Source: Sulfurospirillum sp. 1612
GTDB taxonomy: Bacteria > Campylobacterota > Campylobacteria > Campylobacterales > Sulfurospirillaceae
Assembly: GCF_036556685.1 (NCBI RefSeq)
Contig: NZ_CP140614.1
Coordinates: forward strand, 1,364,001 to 1,428,000
DNA: 64,000 nt
Direction of reading: 5' to 3'
Part shown: positions 12,730-62,940 of the stretch, piece by piece
Position numbering within the stretch: the first letter of the stretch is position 1
How the letters are laid out: the number at the start of each line of letters is the position of its first letter
Position numbers and translations under genes: made by a program
Notes under the pieces: model-generated
Databases searched by the model: none
Seen by the model: only the letters and a program-made list of their open reading frames with translations
What the model was told of the DNA's origin: nothing

Positions 12730-14868
12730 TTATAAAATTTCTCTCTGTCCTTTGGAGTTAACTGATGATAATATCCCAGTCGCTTCTAATTGCTCGACAA
12801 TTCTCGCCGCACGATTATAGCCGATTTGCAATCTTCTTTGAATATAACTGATAGAACATTTTTTTTCATTGATGACAATATTTTTCGCATCTTCAAAAAG
12901 TTCATCAATATCTTCATTGGCAATACTACTACCACTAAAATTGCTCTCTTCTTCTTTGAGAAAATTATCATCATATTCGACTTTACGCTGTTTTTTCAGA
13001 TATTCTACAACTCTTTCAATCTCTTCTTCACTGGCATAAGGGGCGTGGAGTCGTATGAGTCCTGAAGTCGATGGTGGCGTAAAAAGCATATCCCCACGCC
13101 CGAGTAAAGAGTCCGCACCACTCGCATCTAAAATCACTTTACTATCAATCTTTTGTCCCACTTTGAAACTAATACGTGAGGGAAGATTGGCTTTGATTAA
13201 TCCGGTAACAACATCCACCGAAGGGCGTTGTGTCGCAACCAGTAGATGAATGCCACTAGCACGTGCCATTTGTGCCAGTCGTGAAATATAAAATTCAACC
13301 TCTTTACCACTGGTCATCATCAAATCTGCCAATTCATCAATAATTACCACAATATAAGGCAGTGGTGCCCCACCATGCTTTTTGACTTTTTCATTATAAT
13401 TTTCGATGTTTTTAGTGCGCGATTGGGTGAGAATTTTATAACGTCTCTCCATCTCATTGACCATATTAGAGAGTGCGACTATGGCATGTTTTGGTTTGGT
13501 GATGACGGGAGTGAGAAGATGGGGAATGTCATTGTATATCGAAAATTCCAACATCTTAGGATCAATCATGAGGAGTTTCAGGGTATCAGGAGAATTTCTA
13601 TATAACAAAGAGAGTAGCATGGCATTAATCCCCACACTTTTTCCGCTCCCTGTCGTACCGGCGATTAATAGATGCGGGAGTTTTTTGAGATCGGTCACAA
13701 AAGGATTGCCCACAATATCCTTACCCAATGCAATCGTCAAAGGGGAAGATGATTTTTTGAAGATATCACTTTCTAAAATTTCTTTGAGATAAATGGTCTC
13801 GATGCTCTTATTGGGCACTTCGATACCGACAACATCTTTACCAGGGATAGGCGCTTGGATACGGATGGTTTTGGCTTTTAATGCCATCGCCAAATCATCT
13901 TGTAGTGTTAAAATTTTTGACACTTTGATGTGCGGAGCGGGTTTGAATTCAAATGTAGTCACCACAGGACCTGAGTAGGTCCTCACCACATCGCCATCAA
14001 TCTTAAATCGTTTGAGTTTATCGAGCAAATTTGAGATTTTTTGGTCAATTTCACTTTCATTAATATGGTGATTTCTCTTTGGAGGATTGGCTAAAAACCG
14101 CAACGAAGGCAATTCATAATTTTTAGGCTTATCTACCCTGCCCTTTTCAATTTCATCTAATAATTTTTTGTTCTCTTCTACTTCATTTAATATTTCGGAT
14201 TTTTTCACGATTGACGGTGACGCAGTGGTAGATGTATCGGGTGTCGTTTCACTCTCCGTTTGTGCTAAGTCATCATGAGAGGTTTGTCTCTCTTCGCTCA
14301 CTTCTTCTTTTGTTTGCTTCTTTTCATTGGCTTCTTGGCTCTCGTGGACTTCTTTGTTCTCATGGACTTCTTGCACTTCAAAATATTGAGAATCATCATC
14401 TTGTTCTGCTTCACTATCACTATCATGATCTTTTTTTAGTGATAACAGTATCTCATCAAATCTCAAATCAAATAACATCACCACGCTCAAAGCAGTAATC
14501 GCAATGATACAAATCCAAACACCAGCAATACCAATATATGCGATAATAGACTGCGTGATAGAGTACCCAATATAACCATTGCCATCAATCACAACAGATT
14601 GAATCATTAAGAGTGCCAAAAATAGAAGGATTGAAGCTAAATAAATCTCTATTCTACGCGTATCAAAGACAGAATTTTTATAGATAAAATATGCTAAAAC
14701 GATAAATAAAAACGGATAAACATAAGACAAATAACCAAATAATTTATAATTCTCACCCCCCAATGCAGCACCATATAAGCCGACGATTGATGTATCACCA
14801 AGTACCGTGGAGAGCCCTAAAAAAACCAAAAATGCAGTCGTTACTATGAAGATAGTTTCTTTTAAAAT
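12730..14868 (-). CDS. ftsK: DNA translocase FtsK, with putative ATT start
   Basis: Septum-anchored motor that pumps chromosome ends into daughter cells and activates dimer resolution. It has four N-terminal membrane helices, an acidic Gln/Glu-rich linker, an alpha/beta motor domain with Walker A (GTTGSGKS, about 404) and Walker B (VVIIDELADL), and a C-terminal winged-helix gamma domain that reads KOPS-like sites. The first ATG/GTG/TTG in frame is TTG 14829, which would cut off half of helix 1. An ATT at 14868 lies exactly six bases after AAAGGA and restores the helix, giving 712 residues; an in-frame stop lies at 14890–14892. The ATT start is inference. The promoter TATAAT is at 14900–14905. 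Confidence 0.93.
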   Translation of the reverse strand: MLKETIFIVTTAFLVFLGLSTVLGDTSIVGLYGAALGGENYKLFGYLSYVYPFLFIVLAYFIYKNSVFDTRRIEIYLASILLFLALLMIQSVVIDGNGYIGYSITQSIIAYIGIAGVWICIIAITALSVVMLFDLRFDEILLSLKKDHDSDSEAEQDDDSQYFEVQEVHENKEVHESQEANEKKQTKEEVSEERQTSHDDLAQTESETTPDTSTTASPSIVKKSEILNEVEENKKLLDEIEKGRVDKPKNYELPSLRFLANPPKRNHHINESEIDQKISNLLDKLKRFKIDGDVVRTYSGPVVTTFEFKPAPHIKVSKILTLQDDLAMALKAKTIRIQAPIPGKDVVGIEVPNKSIETIYLKEILESDIFKKSSSPLTIALGKDIVGNPFVTDLKKLPHLLIAGTTGSGKSVGINAMLLSLLYRNSPDTLKLLMIDPKMLEFSIYNDIPHLLTPVITKPKHAIVALSNMVNEMERRYKILTQSRTKNIENYNEKVKKHGGAPLPYIVVIIDELADLMMTSGKEVEFYISRLAQMARASGIHLLVATQRPSVDVVTGLIKANLPSRISFKVGQKIDSKVILDASGADSLLGRGDMLFTPPSTSGLIRLHAPYASEEEIERVVEYLKKQRKVEYDDNFLKEEESNFSGSSIANEDIDELFEDAKNIVINEKKCSISYIQRRLQIGYNRAARIVEQLEATGILSSVNSKGQREIL

Positions 14869-20708: not shown

Positions 20709-21500
20709 ATTAAACTTATAGATTTTTTTATACAAAAAAATGATTTTCAAGAAGAGGAAAACCTAAAAGTCAAGGTTTACCTCTTCAATTTTTTCTTTTT
20801 AGCCATCATCATGATACTCTTTTTTTATCTCATGTTTAGCTATACACAATATGATTTTAATTGGTCTAATATCTACGAATACAAGCAAAAATTTATCAGT
20901 GGTTTCTTGACTACGATTTATATATCGTTTTTTGCGCTTATCTTGAGTTTCTTTATCGGACTCTTTTTTGCATACGGTCAAAATTCGAAAATTATCCTCT
21001 TGCGATTTTTCTCCAGATTCTATGTCGAAGTCATCAGAGGTACGCCTCTATTGGTTCAAATTTTGATATTTTTTTATGTGTTTGCTGCCAATATAGGATT
21101 GGATAATCGCTATATCGCGGGCACCTTGATCTTGGCAATTTTTTCAGGAGCCTACATCAGTGAAATCATCAGAGCGGGAATCTTTAGTATCCAAAAAGAG
21201 CAATACGAGACCTCATTATCACTTGGTTTTACAATATTTCAGACCTATAGATACATCATCTTTCCGCAAGCGTATAAGCGTATCATTCCACCGCTGACTG
21301 GGCAATTTGCATCGATTATCAAGGACTCTTCGCTACTCTCAATCATATCTGTGAACGAGTTCACCATGAATGCGCAAGAAGTCAATGCCTATACCTTCTC
21401 AACCTTAGAGAGTTATATCCCACTTGCCATTGGATACTTGCTATTGACCTATCCTATCTCATTGTATGCGCGACACTTAGAAAAAAAGATGAAGGATTAG
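20709..21500 (+). CDS. Amino-acid ABC transporter permease, putative ATT start
   Basis: HisM/GlnP-type permease, 263 residues if started at ATT 20709. Helices fall at about 28–46, 63–85, 100–140, 200–220 and 235–255, and the EAA loop that contacts the ATPase includes GFTIFQTYRYIIFPQA. The first in-frame ATG (20811) lies in the middle of helix 1 with no ribosome site. Upstream, TAGGAG overlaps the stop codon of the binding-protein gene, and ATT 20709 follows AGGA by six bases. No ATG, GTG or TTG exists between them in frame. The ATT start is therefore inferred. The 3' end overlaps the fliP stop by four bases. Confidence 0.9.
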   Translation: MKLIDFFIQKNDFQEEENLKVKVYLFNFFFLAIIMILFFYLMFSYTQYDFNWSNIYEYKQKFISGFLTTIYISFFALILSFFIGLFFAYGQNSKIILLRFFSRFYVEVIRGTPLLVQILIFFYVFAANIGLDNRYIAGTLILAIFSGAYISEIIRAGIFSIQKEQYETSLSLGFTIFQTYRYIIFPQAYKRIIPPLTGQFASIIKDSSLLSIISVNEFTMNAQEVNAYTFSTLESYIPLAIGYLLLTYPISLYARHLEKKMKD

Positions 21501-43133: not shown

Positions 43134-44191
43134 TATATAATCTCCAATTTCGCATTGATGGCACCGGCTCGTTTGATATTTTCGATAATCGATATAATAT
43201 CCTTCGGTGTCGCTCCTAGCTTGTGCAAAGCTCTGGTGATGTTAGCAATCGTGATATCCTTTTCTTTCATGTTGAGTTCATTTTGATTGACTGCGATTTT
43301 AACACCATCCCCTAGATTCACTTGTTCTTTACCTTTTGGCATCACTTTTCTTGGCTCAATTTTGATGGTAATATCACCGTGTGTGATGATAATAGGTGAC
43401 ACATGGATACCAATGCCACTGACGACGGTGCCTGTGCGTTCATCGATGACAATTTTCTCCTCTTTTTCATATTTCACATTCACATTTTCCATCTTGGCTA
43501 GAAATGCTACCATAGAAAGATTATCTGGTTTTTTTAATCGAATAGTACGAGGATCTATCGCTGTTGCGACGTTTTGTTCAAAATAAGTGTTTAATGTTTT
43601 TTCTATTGTTATGGCGGTATTAAAGTCTGAATGTTTCAAACTCAAATCAGCAAATTTTTTATCATACAAATCATACGCGACATCGCGTTCAACAATCGCA
43701 CCATTAAAAATCGTGCCGTTGGTAGCATGATTGACCTGTCCTTTGCTCCTTTTTGGATTCATTCCCCCAATCGTAATGGAGCCTTGTGCTAACGCATAAA
43801 TCTTCCCATCGACCCCTTTTAAAGCGGTGAGTAAAAGCGTCCCACCTTGAAGCGATTTGGCATCTCCAATTGAAGAGATGACAACGTCCATCTTGTCCCC
43901 TTGTCTCGCAAAGGCACCCAATTTTGTCGTTACAATAACCGCCGCAACATTTTTGGATTTGATATCAGAGGAAGAAATTTTGACATTCACCGTCTGCAAA
44001 AGATTGGCCAATGAACGCAGTGTGAATTTAGATGACGTGCCATCGCCCGTTCCATTGAGCCCGACAACTAAGCCGTATCCGATGAGTTGGTTTTCTCTCA
44101 CACCAATGATATTAGCAATATTTTTAATCTTCTCCGCTTGCAAAAAAGAGAGGTTTGATAATATAAGACACAATAGTATGAAGCGCTTCAT
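43133..44191 (-). CDS. flgI: Flagellar P-ring protein FlgI
   Basis: Forms the periplasmic P-ring bushing around the rod. Start ATG 44191 is six bases after AAAGG; an ATG two codons upstream is too close to that site. The 352 residues start with a signal peptide (1–19, ending FLQA). Signatures include NQLIGYGLVVGLNGTGDGT (about 32–50) and, late, NITRALHKLGATPKDIISI. Preceded by a perfect sigma-54 promoter, so it is a middle-class flagellar gene, heading flgI–flgJ–flgM–flgN–flgK. Confidence 0.95.
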   Translation of the reverse strand: MKRFILLCLILSNLSFLQAEKIKNIANIIGVRENQLIGYGLVVGLNGTGDGTSSKFTLRSLANLLQTVNVKISSSDIKSKNVAAVIVTTKLGAFARQGDKMDVVISSIGDAKSLQGGTLLLTALKGVDGKIYALAQGSITIGGMNPKRSKGQVNHATNGTIFNGAIVERDVAYDLYDKKFADLSLKHSDFNTAITIEKTLNTYFEQNVATAIDPRTIRLKKPDNLSMVAFLAKMENVNVKYEKEEKIVIDERTGTVVSGIGIHVSPIIITHGDITIKIEPRKVMPKGKEQVNLGDGVKIAVNQNELNMKEKDITIANITRALHKLGATPKDIISIIENIKRAGAINAKLEII

Positions 44192-54009: not shown

Positions 54010-54096
54010 TATTGCTAACAAAAGTATATTTTTTATTTTGAAAAATATGCTAAAATTGGAACATATAAAAAATAAAAAACAATCAAAGGAATATTG

Positions 54097-55116
54097 ATGA
54101 ATTACAGGTATATTGGGAAAAGTGGCTTGAGAGTGAGTCCAATTTGTCTTGGAACGATGACATTTGGTAGCTTTTGTGATAAAAAAGAATCTTTTAAAAT
54201 CATGGATAAAGCTTATGAGCGAGGTATTAACTTTTTTGATACAGCAGAGCTCTATCCAGTGCCTGCTTCTAGCAAATACAATGGTCGCACTGAAGAATTT
54301 ATCGGTGAATGGATGAAAGACAAACCCAGAGACTCGATTATCCTCGCATCAAAAGTAGCAGGAGCATCCAATGGATGGTTTGTACCACCAATCCGCCATG
54401 GTCTCACTGCTGTTGATCGATTTCATATTACCAAAGCATTAGATGAGAGTCTCAAACGATTACAAACAGATTATCTAGACCTCTACCAAGTTCATTGGCC
54501 GGATATGACGGTACCAATAGAAGAGACGTTAGAAGTTTTAGACGAATTTGTAAAAGCAGGAAAAATACGCTATATCGGAACGTCTAACGACACCGCTTAT
54601 GGCCTAACAAAAGCGAATGAAGTGGCAAAATTCAAAAATTTAGCACGCTATCAATCTATCCAAAATAACTTTTCAATTCTCAATCAAAGATTTTTAGATG
54701 AGTTAGCGCAAGTCTGTCAAAAAGAATCCATCTCTTTATTGCCATATTCTCCATTAGCAGGGGGCGTTTTAACAGGAAAATATAATCAAAAATTTATGCC
54801 TCAAGACGCACGATTTGCAAAATACCTCAACAATCCAAATCCACGCGTTCAAGCACAAGCTGCACGATTTGTCAATGATAAAACCTTGGCTTCGGTAGAA
54901 AAATATCTACAAATAGCCAAAGAATTCGACGTCAATCTTACCACACTAGCCACAGCATGGAGTATGCATTTTGATTTTATTGCCTCTACGATTATTGGGG
55001 TTACGGATGAGACACAACTTGATGTTATTTTCGATGCCTTTGATTATACAATTTCACCAGAATTGATGCAAAAGCTCGATGCTGTTCATAAGGAAATTTT
55101 GTATCCAATGGGTTAG
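54097..55116 (+). CDS. Aldo/keto reductase
   Basis: NADPH-dependent oxidoreductase with a TIM barrel, 339 residues. The catalytic tetrad is visible: Asp and Tyr in FFDTAELYP (about 47–55), Lys in ILASKVAG (about 86) and His in LYQVHWPD (about 129). The NADP-binding LPYSPLAGGVLTGKY stretch lies near 220. It resembles the Tas/YghZ-type branch. The start ATG 54097 is six bases after AAAGGA. Its stop overlaps the convergent 115-residue gene by four bases. Confidence 0.93.
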   Translation: MNYRYIGKSGLRVSPICLGTMTFGSFCDKKESFKIMDKAYERGINFFDTAELYPVPASSKYNGRTEEFIGEWMKDKPRDSIILASKVAGASNGWFVPPIRHGLTAVDRFHITKALDESLKRLQTDYLDLYQVHWPDMTVPIEETLEVLDEFVKAGKIRYIGTSNDTAYGLTKANEVAKFKNLARYQSIQNNFSILNQRFLDELAQVCQKESISLLPYSPLAGGVLTGKYNQKFMPQDARFAKYLNNPNPRVQAQAARFVNDKTLASVEKYLQIAKEFDVNLTTLATAWSMHFDFIASTIIGVTDETQLDVIFDAFDYTISPELMQKLDAVHKEILYPMG

Positions 55117-55460
55117 CGGTACATCTTCCAATTTGACAATTCAAACAAGTCCGGTGTCGCAGACACTTTTGTGAAACCGGCACTTGTTAAGTAACTCAAT
55201 CTCCCTTGAGAGAGACATACCACAAAACGCTCTTCAAAAACAGCATAATTTCTACCGCTAAGATAAGAAAAAAGCTCAGGAAAAGAGGTAGGCTCCACAT
55301 AACACTCCTCAGTCACACGACACGCAATGACATCTTTGAGTATCTCCAAAAACATCTCATTTTTTGCCACCCACGACGGGAGCGACCAACTCTGTTCTGG
55401 ATAACTAAAATTCCCAAATAAATCTGAAGTTTTTAATTTTGTTCTTTTATTAGCATTCAT
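55113..55460 (-). CDS. Hypothetical protein, 115 aa
   Basis: Unrecognised soluble protein. Short, with two cysteines (about 47 and 53) and a Trp-rich N-terminal third (WSLPSWVAKNEMFLEIL near 25–41). GAGAAG precedes ATG 55460. It lies convergent to the reductase gene and divergent from the DMT transporter. No function is proposed. Confidence 0.6.
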   Translation of the reverse strand: MNANKRTKLKTSDLFGNFSYPEQSWSLPSWVAKNEMFLEILKDVIACRVTEECYVEPTSFPELFSYLSGRNYAVFEERFVVCLSQGRLSYLTSAGFTKVSATPDLFELSNWKMYR

Positions 55461-55487
55461 AATCTTCTCTTTTTGTCATTTCAGTGA

Positions 55488-55493
55488 TATAAT
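55488..55493 (+). promoter_or_regulatory. -10 box for the DMT transporter operon
   Basis: TATAAT lies 22 bases before AAAGGA and about 34 bases before the proposed ATA start. It is separated from the divergent 115-residue gene by 28 bases. Confidence 0.55.
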
Positions 55494-55521
55494 ATCTTTT
55501 TTTAAAAATAAAGGATTTATT

Positions 55522-56412
55522 ATACCAGTTTTTTTTCTATTAATATTATGCGTTTTATTTTGGTCGGGCAATTTTGTCATTGGTAGGTTTGTTCACTCAG
55601 ATATCGACCCCTTGCAGTTAGCATTTTTTAGGTGGCTTGGAGCCGCTGTGTTTATGTTGCCCGTCATCATTGTCAAATTTGGTAAAATCACCAAAGTGAT
55701 TAAAGAGCATTTTCTCATACTCACCCTCCTCTCGTGGCTTGGTATCACAGCATTTAATACCTTATTGTATGTCGGATTGCAATATACCACAGCAACCAAT
55801 GCGCTTTTGATTAACTCTTTTATTCCTATTCTCATTTTGGTCTTTTCTTTTTTTATTCTCAAAATTCGCATCAGTCCAAAACAGTTTACAGGGATTCTTA
55901 TCTCCACCTTAGGCGTTATCTTCCTAGTACTTCGAGGTCAAATATCTACACTGAGCACGTTAGAACTCAATCAAGGAGATATTTGGATTATTGTCTCCTC
56001 CTTAACATGGGCACTCTACTCAGTACTTGTCAAATTTAAACCCAAAGAATTAAATGATCTTGAATTTTTTACTACCATTGTATTTGTAGGTCTCTTTTGG
56101 CTCTTTCTTATCTACAAATTCATGGGATATAGTGTCAATGAGGATATGGCAAAAGTTTATGCACACCCTTGGGTCTTTGTTTATGTCTCCTTTTTTACCT
56201 CCGTACTATCTTTTTACTTTTGGCATCAAGGTATCCATCATATCGGAGCGAATAAAACCGGTCAATTTACCCATCTCATGCCGCTATTTGGTTCAATTTT
56301 GGCTTATTTATTTTTAGGAGAAAAACTCCATCTTTACCATATTTTTGGGGCGTTACTTATCGCAACAGGCATTTACCTCTCTTTGTTTAGCAAACGAAAA
56401 GGGATTATTTGA
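55522..56412 (+). CDS. EamA/DMT-family transporter 1, putative ATA start
   Basis: Ten-helix metabolite exporter of the drug/metabolite superfamily, with two EamA repeats (about 5–140 and 155–290). The first ATG/GTG/TTG in frame (TTG 55612) would delete helix 1 and part of its loop. Upstream, AAAGGA (55510–55515) is followed after six bases by ATA 55522, with ATT 55519 next to it; no ordinary start codon lies between. The segment that is regained (VFFLLILCVLFWSGNFVIGR) is the typical first EamA helix. About 296 residues, the normal size. The substrate is unknown. Overlaps the next gene by four bases. Confidence 0.88.
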   Translation: MPVFFLLILCVLFWSGNFVIGRFVHSDIDPLQLAFFRWLGAAVFMLPVIIVKFGKITKVIKEHFLILTLLSWLGITAFNTLLYVGLQYTTATNALLINSFIPILILVFSFFILKIRISPKQFTGILISTLGVIFLVLRGQISTLSTLELNQGDIWIIVSSLTWALYSVLVKFKPKELNDLEFFTTIVFVGLFWLFLIYKFMGYSVNEDMAKVYAHPWVFVYVSFFTSVLSFYFWHQGIHHIGANKTGQFTHLMPLFGSILAYLFLGEKLHLYHIFGALLIATGIYLSLFSKRKGII

Positions 56413-57269
56413 AATATACCGGTTTCCTGCTCGTTCTCTTTTCGAGTATCTGCTTTGGGGTGATGCCAATCTTTGCAACTTTTGCCTATCAAACAGGCCT
56501 CAGCGTGTCGGTTGTTTTGTTGTTTCGATTTCTGCTTGCAGCCATTTTATTGAATCTTTATGTTCTGATAAAAGGATACAAATATCCAACAGGAAAAACA
56601 CTCATCATTCTTATCATGATGGGCGGGGTAGGATATGCCACGCAATCTTTTTTATATTTCACAGCTTTGACACTCATTGGCTCCTCTCTCACCGCGATTT
56701 TACTCTATCTTTATCCTGCTATTGTGTTGCTGCTATCCATATTTTTACTCAACACAAAAATCAAGAAGATTGAGATTATCGCACTCATTTTAGCGATGAT
56801 TGGAGCGCTACTTGTTATTGGAATCAAATTTGAACAGATGAATTACATCGGCATTTTATTTGGTATCGGTGCTGCTTTTGTCTATTCGATTTATATATTA
56901 GCCGGCTCAAAAGTCATGCAGGGTATTCATGCCCTCGTCGGTGCTACGGTCATCATCAGTAGTGCCTCTGTGGTTTATTTGCTATTTACCCTCTCAGCTC
57001 ATGCAACGATGCCGGCAACAACACAACAATGGACCTGGGTATTTGCGATTGCCATGGTCTCAGGAATCTTAGCAATCGTGACTTTTTTCTCTGGCATGAA
57101 AATCGTCGGTCCCGTCAAAGCTTCTATGATTTCAACATTTGAACCGGTAGTGACAGTGTACCTTTCTTATTTACTTTTACATGATACAATCACCCGCTAC
57201 CAAATCTTAGGAGCTATTTTAATTATTACAGCCGCTATTTTAATTTCTAAGGAGGGAAACCATGAGTAA
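56409..57269 (+). CDS. EamA/DMT-family transporter 2
   Basis: Second ten-helix transporter (286 residues), a paralogue or partner of the first. Starts with helix 1 (about 3–24, FSSICFGVMPIFATFAY) and shows two EamA repeats. It starts at TTG 56409 (AAGGG ahead) overlapping the first by four bases, so the two may form a pair; most EamA proteins act alone. Substrate unknown. The methyltransferase gene follows with an eight-base overlap. Confidence 0.9.
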   Translation: MKYTGFLLVLFSSICFGVMPIFATFAYQTGLSVSVVLLFRFLLAAILLNLYVLIKGYKYPTGKTLIILIMMGGVGYATQSFLYFTALTLIGSSLTAILLYLYPAIVLLLSIFLLNTKIKKIEIIALILAMIGALLVIGIKFEQMNYIGILFGIGAAFVYSIYILAGSKVMQGIHALVGATVIISSASVVYLLFTLSAHATMPATTQQWTWVFAIAMVSGILAIVTFFSGMKIVGPVKASMISTFEPVVTVYLSYLLLHDTITRYQILGAILIITAAILISKEGNHE

Positions 57270-60750: not shown

Positions 60751-61745
60751 TTACTACTCCTTAAATTATAGATAAGTCCAACCGGACCTCTTTCATACCA
60801 TTTACTCTTGTCTTTTTTGTCTTTCTTACCCATTTGTTGGGTGAGTCGGTCTAATACAATCGCTAATAAAACGATGCCCAAGCCACCAACTGCTGCCAGA
60901 CCAATATCAAGTCTGCCGATACCTCTTAGCACCATTTGTCCCAAACCTCCAACGGCAATCATCGAAGCAATGACCACCATAGAGAGTGAGAGCATCAAGG
61001 TTTGATTAATACCTGCCATAATTGTAGGCATGGCCACAGGTAACTGGACTTTAAACAACATTTGAGTGCCACTAGCACCAAAAGATCGTGATGCTTCAAT
61101 CAAATCCGCAGGTACTTGCCTAATACCCAAATTGGTCAAACGAATCAAAGGAGGCAAGGCGAAAATAATCGTCACAATGACACCTGGAACGTTGCCGATA
61201 CCAAATAACATGACAATAGGGATCAGATATACAAATGCTGGCGTGGTCTGCATCGCATCCAAAATAGGCCTCAATATATTATCAAATCGATCACTTTTGG
61301 CACTGAGAATCCCAAGAGGAAGCCCTAAGAGCATTGAGAAGATAACCGAAGTCAATACCAAGGCTAATGTAATCATAGATTGTTCCCAAACCCCTATAAA
61401 TCCAAGTGCAAGAAATGATAATAAGGTCAAAAATGCCATCTTTTTTGATGACACTTGCCATGCTAAAAGTGCAAAGAAGAGGACAATAATAAAGGGATTG
61501 ACGTGTAATAAAAAGTTCTGTACGCCGAGTAATATAGTCTCCACTGGTACTTTTGCTAATTGAAAAAAATCTCGAAAGTTACCGACTACCCATGATAATG
61601 ATGAATCTACCCATTTGTCCAAAGGAAGCACCATATCTTTAAAAGGATGCGAAATATCAAAATGATAGGCCGCTTTTTGTGACGCTTGCCCCCAATCCAT
61701 CGTTGAATTTTGCTCTACAGCTGTACCCCAAGGATTACTACTCAT
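60747..61745 (-). CDS. proW: Glycine betaine ABC permease ProW
   Basis: Permease of 332 residues with a hydrophilic N-terminal tail of about 75 residues and six to seven helices. The EAA loop is [22 protein letters not shown] (described in part; about 218–238). The segments [14 protein letters not shown] and [21 protein letters not shown]-type sequence are typical of ProW. GGATATATAA precedes ATG 61745, overlapping proV by eight bases. Confidence 0.94.
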
Positions 61746-62940
61746 TTATATATCCTTCATCAAAAGTTTCAAGCAAAATGCTTTTGGAGATAGAGCCTTT
61801 ATATTTGCCATCTTCACCCACTACTGCAATTGGATTTTTATGAGAGGCGACCACACTAATAATGTCACTAATAGGGGTATTCTCCAAAATGGTTTCTTGC
61901 TCGATAATGGCATCATAAATCGTTCCTCCGAGTTTTTGTTGTTTACTCAAAGAAGCCATCGTCAAACATCCAAGATATTTATTATTTTTTTCAACAAAAA
62001 AACCAAAATCTCTGTCATAATCACTCATATATTGCATCGCTGATTTTATCCCACTTCCCTCTTTTTTGACAATCGTTAGATTTGATTTTCTTGCGATATG
62101 TGAAGCACTCAGCACTGAGGTAACATTGACCCCCTTAAAAAATGATTTGACATAATCGTTGGCCGGATTACTAATAATCTCTTCGGGCGTTCCGATTTGA
62201 GCAATATTGGCATTTTCCATAATAGCAATACGATCTCCAATACGAATCGCTTCGTCAAGATCATGAGAGATAAAGACAATCGTGCGTTCTTGTTCATTTT
62301 GCAAATTTAAAAGTTCATCTTGCATTTCGGTTCTGATCAAAGGATCAAGTGCTGAAAATGCTTCATCCATGAGCAAGATATCAGGATCATTTGCAAGCGC
62401 TCGAGCAAGTCCCACGCGTTGTTGCATCCCGCCGCTGAGTTCATCAGGATAGACATCACCATAATTTTCTAACCCAACTTGTTTCAATGCGGCATTGGCT
62501 TTTTCATAACGTTCAGATTTAGAAACTCCGCTCAAATCGAGTCCAAATGCCGTATTATCGAGAATATTTAAGTGTGGCATCAATGCAAAAGATTGAAAGA
62601 CCATAGAGATTTTGTTTCTGCGTATATTTTGCAACTTCTTATCACTGAGATTTGTGACTTCAATATCATCGATAAAAATTTGTCCGCTTGTTGGTTCAAT
62701 CAACCTATTTAAAAGTCGTACCAGAGTAGATTTGCCAGAGCCAGATAATCCCATAATGACAAAAATTTCACCTTTGTACACTTCAAATTCAGCATTCTGA
62801 ACACCTATTGTCATTCCAGTTTTTCTAAATATTTCCTCTTTGTTTTGACCTTTATGTACCATTTTCATCGCTTGTTTTGGATTATCTCCAAAAACTTTAT
62901 AAAGGTTTTTTACGACGAGTTTTTTTTCTCTTTCTTCGAT
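61738..62940 (-). CDS. proV: Glycine betaine ABC ATPase ProV, putative ATC start
   Basis: ATPase of the osmoprotectant importer. The first ATG in frame (62868) lies inside the conserved ProV N-terminus. The sequence upstream translates to [17 protein letters not shown], the usual ProV start, and ATC 62940 lies six bases after AAAGGA. No ATG/GTG/TTG intervenes and a stop occurs at 62959–62961. This gives 400 residues, like E. coli ProV: Walker [10 protein letters not shown] (about 65–73), signature [14 protein letters not shown], Walker [14 protein letters not shown], and two C-terminal CBS-type domains (about 280–395) for ionic-strength sensing. The ATC start is inference. Confidence 0.93.

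Follow-up and report, generated by a model that had tools for sequence, protein, structure and literature searches.

An EamA transporter frame that lacks a standard start at its 5' end

The window, by which we mean the whole 64,000-nucleotide stretch analyzed here, is part of the 2,377,931-base, one-contig genome of Sulfurospirillum sp. 1612. It contains two consecutive EamA transporter genes (Table 1), and it is the start of the first of them that concerns us. The open frame of this gene spans positions 55405 to 56412, its upstream bound being the stop before 55405. Reading the frame from that stop, we found no ATG, GTG, or TTG up to TTG 55612, which is thus the first standard in-frame start and is followed by GTG 55648. 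The original prediction proposed that a near-cognate codon preceded by a Shine-Dalgarno (SD) sequence restores the first EamA helix, and the AAAGGA, ATT, and ATA on which it relied are indeed placed as claimed, all in the EamA frame. The stretch from ATA to TTG translates as IPVFFLLILCVLFWSGNFVIGRFVHSDIDP, a hydrophobic helix with W-S-G-N at its end, which confirms the claimed first helix and its turn. Upstream, a TATAAT hexamer with TGN in front lies 28 nt 5' of ATA 55522.

The product belongs to the EamA family (PF00892), since the protein read from ATA 55522 scores 157.5 bits against a gathering cut-off of 28.2 and matches in two EamA stretches; read from TTG 55612, it scores 134.2 bits. 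Its scores with the NCBIfam TIGR00950 and YddG models are below cut-off, and a sequence-profile search for a solved structure gave none at E 0.01. The gene is unusual in its start codon only.

Table 1. Positions of the EamA gene, its start-region elements, and other genes with AUH starts (window coordinates unless another contig is named)
Feature	Position	Strand	Remarks
EamA/DMT transporter CDS	55522..56412	+	296 residues; two EamA stretches (Pfam, 157.5 bits)
TATAAT, extended -10 type promoter element (TGA TATAAT)	55488..55493	+	Consensus match only
AAAGGA, Shine-Dalgarno sequence	55510..55515	+	AAAGGA/AAAGG/GGAGG in all 8 non-AUG orthologues
ATT, alternative (less likely) start	55519..55521	+	3 nt past SD
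ATA, most likely start codon	55522..55524	+	6 nt past SD; shares column with ATG of orthologues
First hydrophobic (transmembrane) segment	55528..55584	+	Hydropathy, residues 3-21; pN/pS 0.205; lost with TTG 55612 start
W-S-G-N turn codons	55561..55572	+	W, S, and N invariant in 16/16 aligned orthologues
TTG, first standard in-frame start codon	55612..55614	+	Rejected as start
Second EamA transporter	56409..57269	+	TTG start overlaps first gene's stop (TTGA)
FtsK	12730..14868	-	AUU start at 14868, AAAGGA TACAAT ATT (6 nt)
Amino-acid ABC permease (GlnP-like)	20709..21500	+	AUU start at 20709, found by scan
ProV	61738..62940	-	AUC start at 62940, AAAGGA AAAAAT ATC (6 nt)
DsbD_2 membrane protein	G000 C1:2065847-2066536 (L242:5847-6536)	-	AUA start; 400-kb sample

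The start column and the reading of the first helix

At E 1e-50, an EamA match was found in 33 of the 44 Sulfurospirillaceae genomes searched, and the start column was read in 27 of these, leaving aside G007 (cut by a contig end), G044 (ATG), and G003, G004, G005, and G009, whose genes are 39-40% identical and all have ATG. The column holds ATG in 20 genes, ATA in five, ATC in one, and TTG in one. The ATA group consists of the window gene, L002, L003, L004, and L005, each of which reads TTT ATT ATA behind AAAGGA or GGAGG, so that the arrangement seen in the window, an SD sequence without any standard start, is shared by four more genomes, among them S. arcachonense DSM 9755 (L067, the same as L004). 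Related non-AUG forms occur in three further genomes: L040, whose start sequence is identical to that of L066 from S. arcachonense SZUA-1415, reads GAT ACT ATC, and TCT ATC GTA is found in L065 and L079, which are 67% and 70% identical and came to light when named genomes were scanned. A recurrence of this extent is more than chance would give. In none of the eight non-AUG orthologues does the frame contain ATG, GTG, or TTG upstream of the start column as far back as the preceding stop, which lies 7 codons up in L003, 6 codons up in L004, and 52 codons up in L063 (L005's contig). Downstream, six of the eight lack a standard codon before codon 31. The other two have one early in the helix, a TTG at codon 7 in L061 and a GTG at codon 11 in L063 (with the ATT column numbered 0), which counts against a near-cognate start. 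TATAAT is found 19-41 nt 5' of the start column in seven of the eight. The original prediction had named an ATG elsewhere in relatives as evidence against it; an ATG is found, yet it stands in the very column of ATA 55522. Of note, no stop interrupts the EamA frame of L040 ahead of the ATG of a methyltransferase-like gene downstream, and the frame continues open as far as the contig end; this may reflect a fusion, read-through, or an assembly error.

Whether the codons before TTG 55612 are translated at all was assessed from their substitution pattern. Over eight sequences, pN/pS was 0.205 for codons 2-30, 0.346 for codons 31-59, and 0.268 for codons 60-120, and the low value for codons 2-30 identifies the part before TTG 55612 as coding. 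In addition, W14, S15, N17, G21, R22, and P30 are invariant in 16/16 aligned orthologues. A protein of nine helices that begins at TTG 55612, the outcome that would have contradicted the original prediction, has in its favor that this codon is the earliest standard in-frame start and that its column holds ATG in L065 and L079. With the TTG of the window itself, a standard start is present in this column in three of the eight non-AUG orthologues and absent from it in the other five; relatives with ATG encode the first helix, and the EamA score falls by 23 bits when the protein is read from TTG. We reject this start on the grounds of purifying selection, the invariant residues, and the five orthologues without a standard start in that column, and regard a nine-helix protein as extremely improbable. 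The alignment of the orthologues' ATG with ATA, the pN/pS, and the EamA score together support a near-cognate start that restores the first helix.

Two codons could provide that start. In a survey of SD sequences covering 53 window genes of 68 ORFs (two of which, 20811 and 61738, were later given other starts), 33 genes had an SD-like match, and the spacing, in the register of AAAGGA, was 5-10 nt in 27 of them, 16-18 nt in four, -1 nt in one, and 3 nt in one. The single gene with a 3-nt spacing starts with TTG 54094 and has an ATG at 6 nt; in this ORF (54094-55116), ATG 54097 directly follows TTG 54094 at the proper SD distance and is the likelier start. ATA 55522, 6 nt behind AAAGGA, has a normal spacing, and the -10 element also lies at a usual distance. 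Translation from AUU 55519, one codon earlier, with AUA as the second codon, is an alternative that we consider rather unlikely, even though conservation of ATT matches that of ATA in the five ATT-ATA sequences. These five orthologues carry the two codons unchanged in their DNA, in which a single codon is kept in 0/9 invariant Ile columns elsewhere and in 22/134 degenerate invariant columns. The ATC-GTA of L065 and L079, where only the first codon is a plausible start, casts some doubt on ATA and speaks for the ATT column, and E. coli infC likewise starts with AUU. Against AUU 55519 stand its distance of only 3 nt from the SD sequence, compared with 5-10 nt in 27 of the 33 window genes, and L040, which has ACT at the ATT column and ATC at the start column. 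Furthermore, in L256 (DsbD_2), L275 (permease), and L202 (FtsK), an ATT precedes another near-cognate codon and the aligned start is the second. Taken together, the SD spacing, the alignment with the ATG of relatives, and the ATC of L040 favor ATA over ATT, and AUA 55522 is most likely the codon at which translation would begin.

Two other explanations remain to be weighed against a start at AUA 55522. Runs of T and A flank the start region and might suggest that initiation lies farther upstream, or that it occurs out of frame with a later frameshift. If transcription starts some 7 nt downstream of the -10 element, the TATAAT present in seven of the eight sequences would leave a leader of roughly 12-34 nt, the in-frame stops of L004 and L003 oppose an upstream start, and the out-of-frame ATG 55548 ends at a TAG after 12 codons; we hold this explanation to be very unlikely. 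A pseudogene or a sequencing error in the window would be in keeping with the very poor performance of AUA as a start (PMC13009471). Yet the frame is intact, the low pN/pS opposes both, and independent genomes, including the S. arcachonense DSM 9755 record, share the arrangement. The orthologues led us to reject this explanation, to which we give almost no credence, and an error of sequencing, against which the original prediction had asked for a check, is thereby made unlikely.

The phylogenetic tree comprised 49 rows (L001, L061-L109, and L130, with L070 and L078 omitted because they lack a readable motif), the remaining loci of the named-genome scan lying outside it. All eight non-AUG rows fall within one nine-row clade, whose support of 93/83 is short of the starred level, and the ninth row, L064, has ATG. 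The non-AUG state is thus conserved in 8/9 clade rows, two of the eight being ATC-GTA, and the ATG of L064 indicates that AUG is tolerated there. The tree requires at least two start-codon changes, the simplest reading of which would be that the weak start arose once and ATG was regained once. L064 and its neighbors L068, L069, and L075 (ATG, TTG, and ATG) lack AAAGGA, as would be expected if start codon and SD strength were traded against each other, an impression drawn from these four sequences.

Near-cognate starts in other genes of the genome

We designate AUU, AUC, and AUA collectively as AUH. Long 5' extensions in the window, together with a scan of the window and of a 400-kb genome sample, revealed AUH starts kept by orthologues in ftsK, in genes for a DsbD_2 membrane protein and an amino-acid ABC permease, in ygjP, and in proV of the same genome (proteins are named from Pfam/NCBIfam matches). 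The start column of FtsK was read in 24 of 30 loci, the other six stopping short of the N-terminus, and holds AUH in 22 of the 24 rows (ATT in 16, ATC in 4, and ATA in 2), which come from several families of the order. The remaining two are a row with ATG one codon on and a misaligned row with ATT two codons before; among less clear rows, four have ATG or TTG 2-5 codons upstream and one has TTG 18 codons upstream. For the DsbD_2 protein, all 24 loci were read (ATA in 12, ATC in 3, ATT in 2, and ATG in 7), with AUH in 16/16 Sulfurospirillaceae rows, which represent 16 of 44 genomes of the family, and, outside the family, all of the ATG rows plus one ATC row. An in-frame stop lies 1-5 codons upstream in 15 of the 16 family rows, and the family row L259 has TTG two codons up. 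The 13/13 permease loci show ATC (6), ATT (3), or an ATT or ATC one codon earlier (4), with an ATG two codons up in row L276. All five ProV loci were read; the codon is ATC in the gene itself and ATG in one other, and in the remaining three, where it stands one codon ahead of the aligned column, it is ATA, ATT, and ATT. The YgjP-like protein of the 400-kb sample starts with ATT; 13 of its 18 loci were read (ATT in 7, all in the genus, ATG in 3, and others in 3), and an eighth genus row, L298, has ATT too. AUA is a very poor start, and the original prediction, which held the EamA gene to be the most unusual of four cases on this account, was right in part, since AUA, AUU, and AUC interchange at the FtsK and DsbD_2 start columns and AUA and AUC do so at that of EamA. 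In G032, from another family of the order, an ORF at L334:10883 (-), which we take to be TatD-like from its DTHCHLD motif, has an ATT start candidate behind AAAGG.

In 464 kb with 406 ORFs of 110 codons or more, six AUH genes are supported by orthologues, or about 1.5%, four of the six coming from a window chosen because such cases had been noticed there. A codon-neutral scan for SD sequences found matches in front of 9/192 AUH codons and 11/1707 others in the window plus sample of G000 (p 5.7e-5, the window being preselected) and, marginally, 4/165 against 9/1427 in the G000 sample alone (p 0.038). The same scan was not significant in samples of other Campylobacterota (p 0.44 in G011, 0.08 in G032, and 0.73 in G027) or of E. 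coli (p 0.2). Three of the nine AUH matches were judged spurious (the one near 43193 (-) in the window, L227, and L231), and E. coli infC, which lies inside the scanned sample, was absent from the E. coli matches. Our case therefore rests on the orthologues and not on the scan, and, given the preselected window and the weak scans, we claim a conserved set of genes rather than a genome-wide rate. A search of the open-licence PMC literature for AUH starts in Campylobacterota found none among the papers listed.

Gene finders that accept only ATG, GTG, and TTG would lose the first helix of EamA and shorten FtsK and others, with the consequence that N-termini and regulation are misread. The exchange of AUA, AUC, and AUU without AUG, as in DsbD_2 of 16/16 family genomes, provides natural evidence that weak initiation is selected.

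Proposed role of the weak start and comparison with known cases

From the sequence comparisons, we consider it probable that the gene encodes an ordinary EamA transporter translated from AUA 55522, that its weak codon is under selection, and that it is a member of the AUH set. Our working model is that pairing of the AAAGGA with the ribosome would place the 30S subunit, that the first two bases of AUA would pair with fMet-tRNA, and that IF3 would test the third base and reject most such complexes. The output of EamA would therefore be low, about one-tenth of that from AUG if the figures from Staphylococcus aureus carry over. Selection may keep the weak codon for low expression or for a response to IF3 or to the growth state, and the EamA gene would then belong with ftsK, DsbD_2, the ABC permease, ygjP, and proV in the set with AUH starts. 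Katoh and Suga report that IF3 requires Watson-Crick pairing at codon positions one and two, and that at position three it is more tolerant yet excludes weak pairs (PMC10158994). The replacements that we observed, AUA, AUC, and AUU, fit this rule, as does the expectation that they should be weak.

We rejected a loss of IF3 in the clade, since an IF3 match was found in 26/26 genomes searched, and likewise an AUH start shared by infC, whose first possible start is TTG in 20/20 loci of the order (L141-L160). Throughout its length, the IF3 of the window's genome aligns with the E. coli protein, and, with the TTG of infC, this would give no sign of a lost discrimination. More tentatively, AUH starts could form a regular and old minority class that Sulfurospirillaceae and related Campylobacterales keep in certain defined genes and that acts as a translational regulon through IF3 or the state of the ribosome, a broader reading that we find possible but would not yet favor. 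It includes the proposal that one AUH codon gives way to another more easily than to AUG. If true, such a regulon would be invisible to annotation restricted to ATG, GTG, and TTG, and the AUH genes offer a ready set in which to examine control by IF3 beyond its infC feedback loop. AUA and AUU starts are known elsewhere; what makes our observations worth following up is the conserved set in Campylobacterota.

The protein itself resembles other EamA/DMT transporters (PF00892), which have two EamA stretches and a full first helix, as here. The classic example of IF3-sensitive initiation is E. coli infC; its AUU, which we read in the sequence, is a near-cognate start, as is that of the EamA gene, and the infC of Sulfurospirillum's order, with TTG as the first possible start, is unlike it in this respect. 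Another AUU start, that of E. coli pcnB, appears in the reference list of PMC13009471. In that study, natural starts of the same kind are described in S. aureus, namely, AUA in ccpN, infC, and citZ and AUU in cvfC1, with an extended SD sequence in infC, cvfC1, and ccpN (PMC13009471). The ccpN start is shared by S. aureus and Bacillus subtilis, and the cvfC1 start is conserved among staphylococci; reporter output was below that of AUG for cvfC1, ccpN, and citZ. In poor medium, AUA and AUU starts reached about 10% of the output from AUG, and in rich medium ccpN reached up to 30% (PMC13009471). The S. aureus cases differ from ours in their genes, in their phylum, and in resting on ribosome profiling and reporters rather than on sequence, and the EamA gene is set apart from them by the exchange of AUA, AUC, and ATG within its start column.
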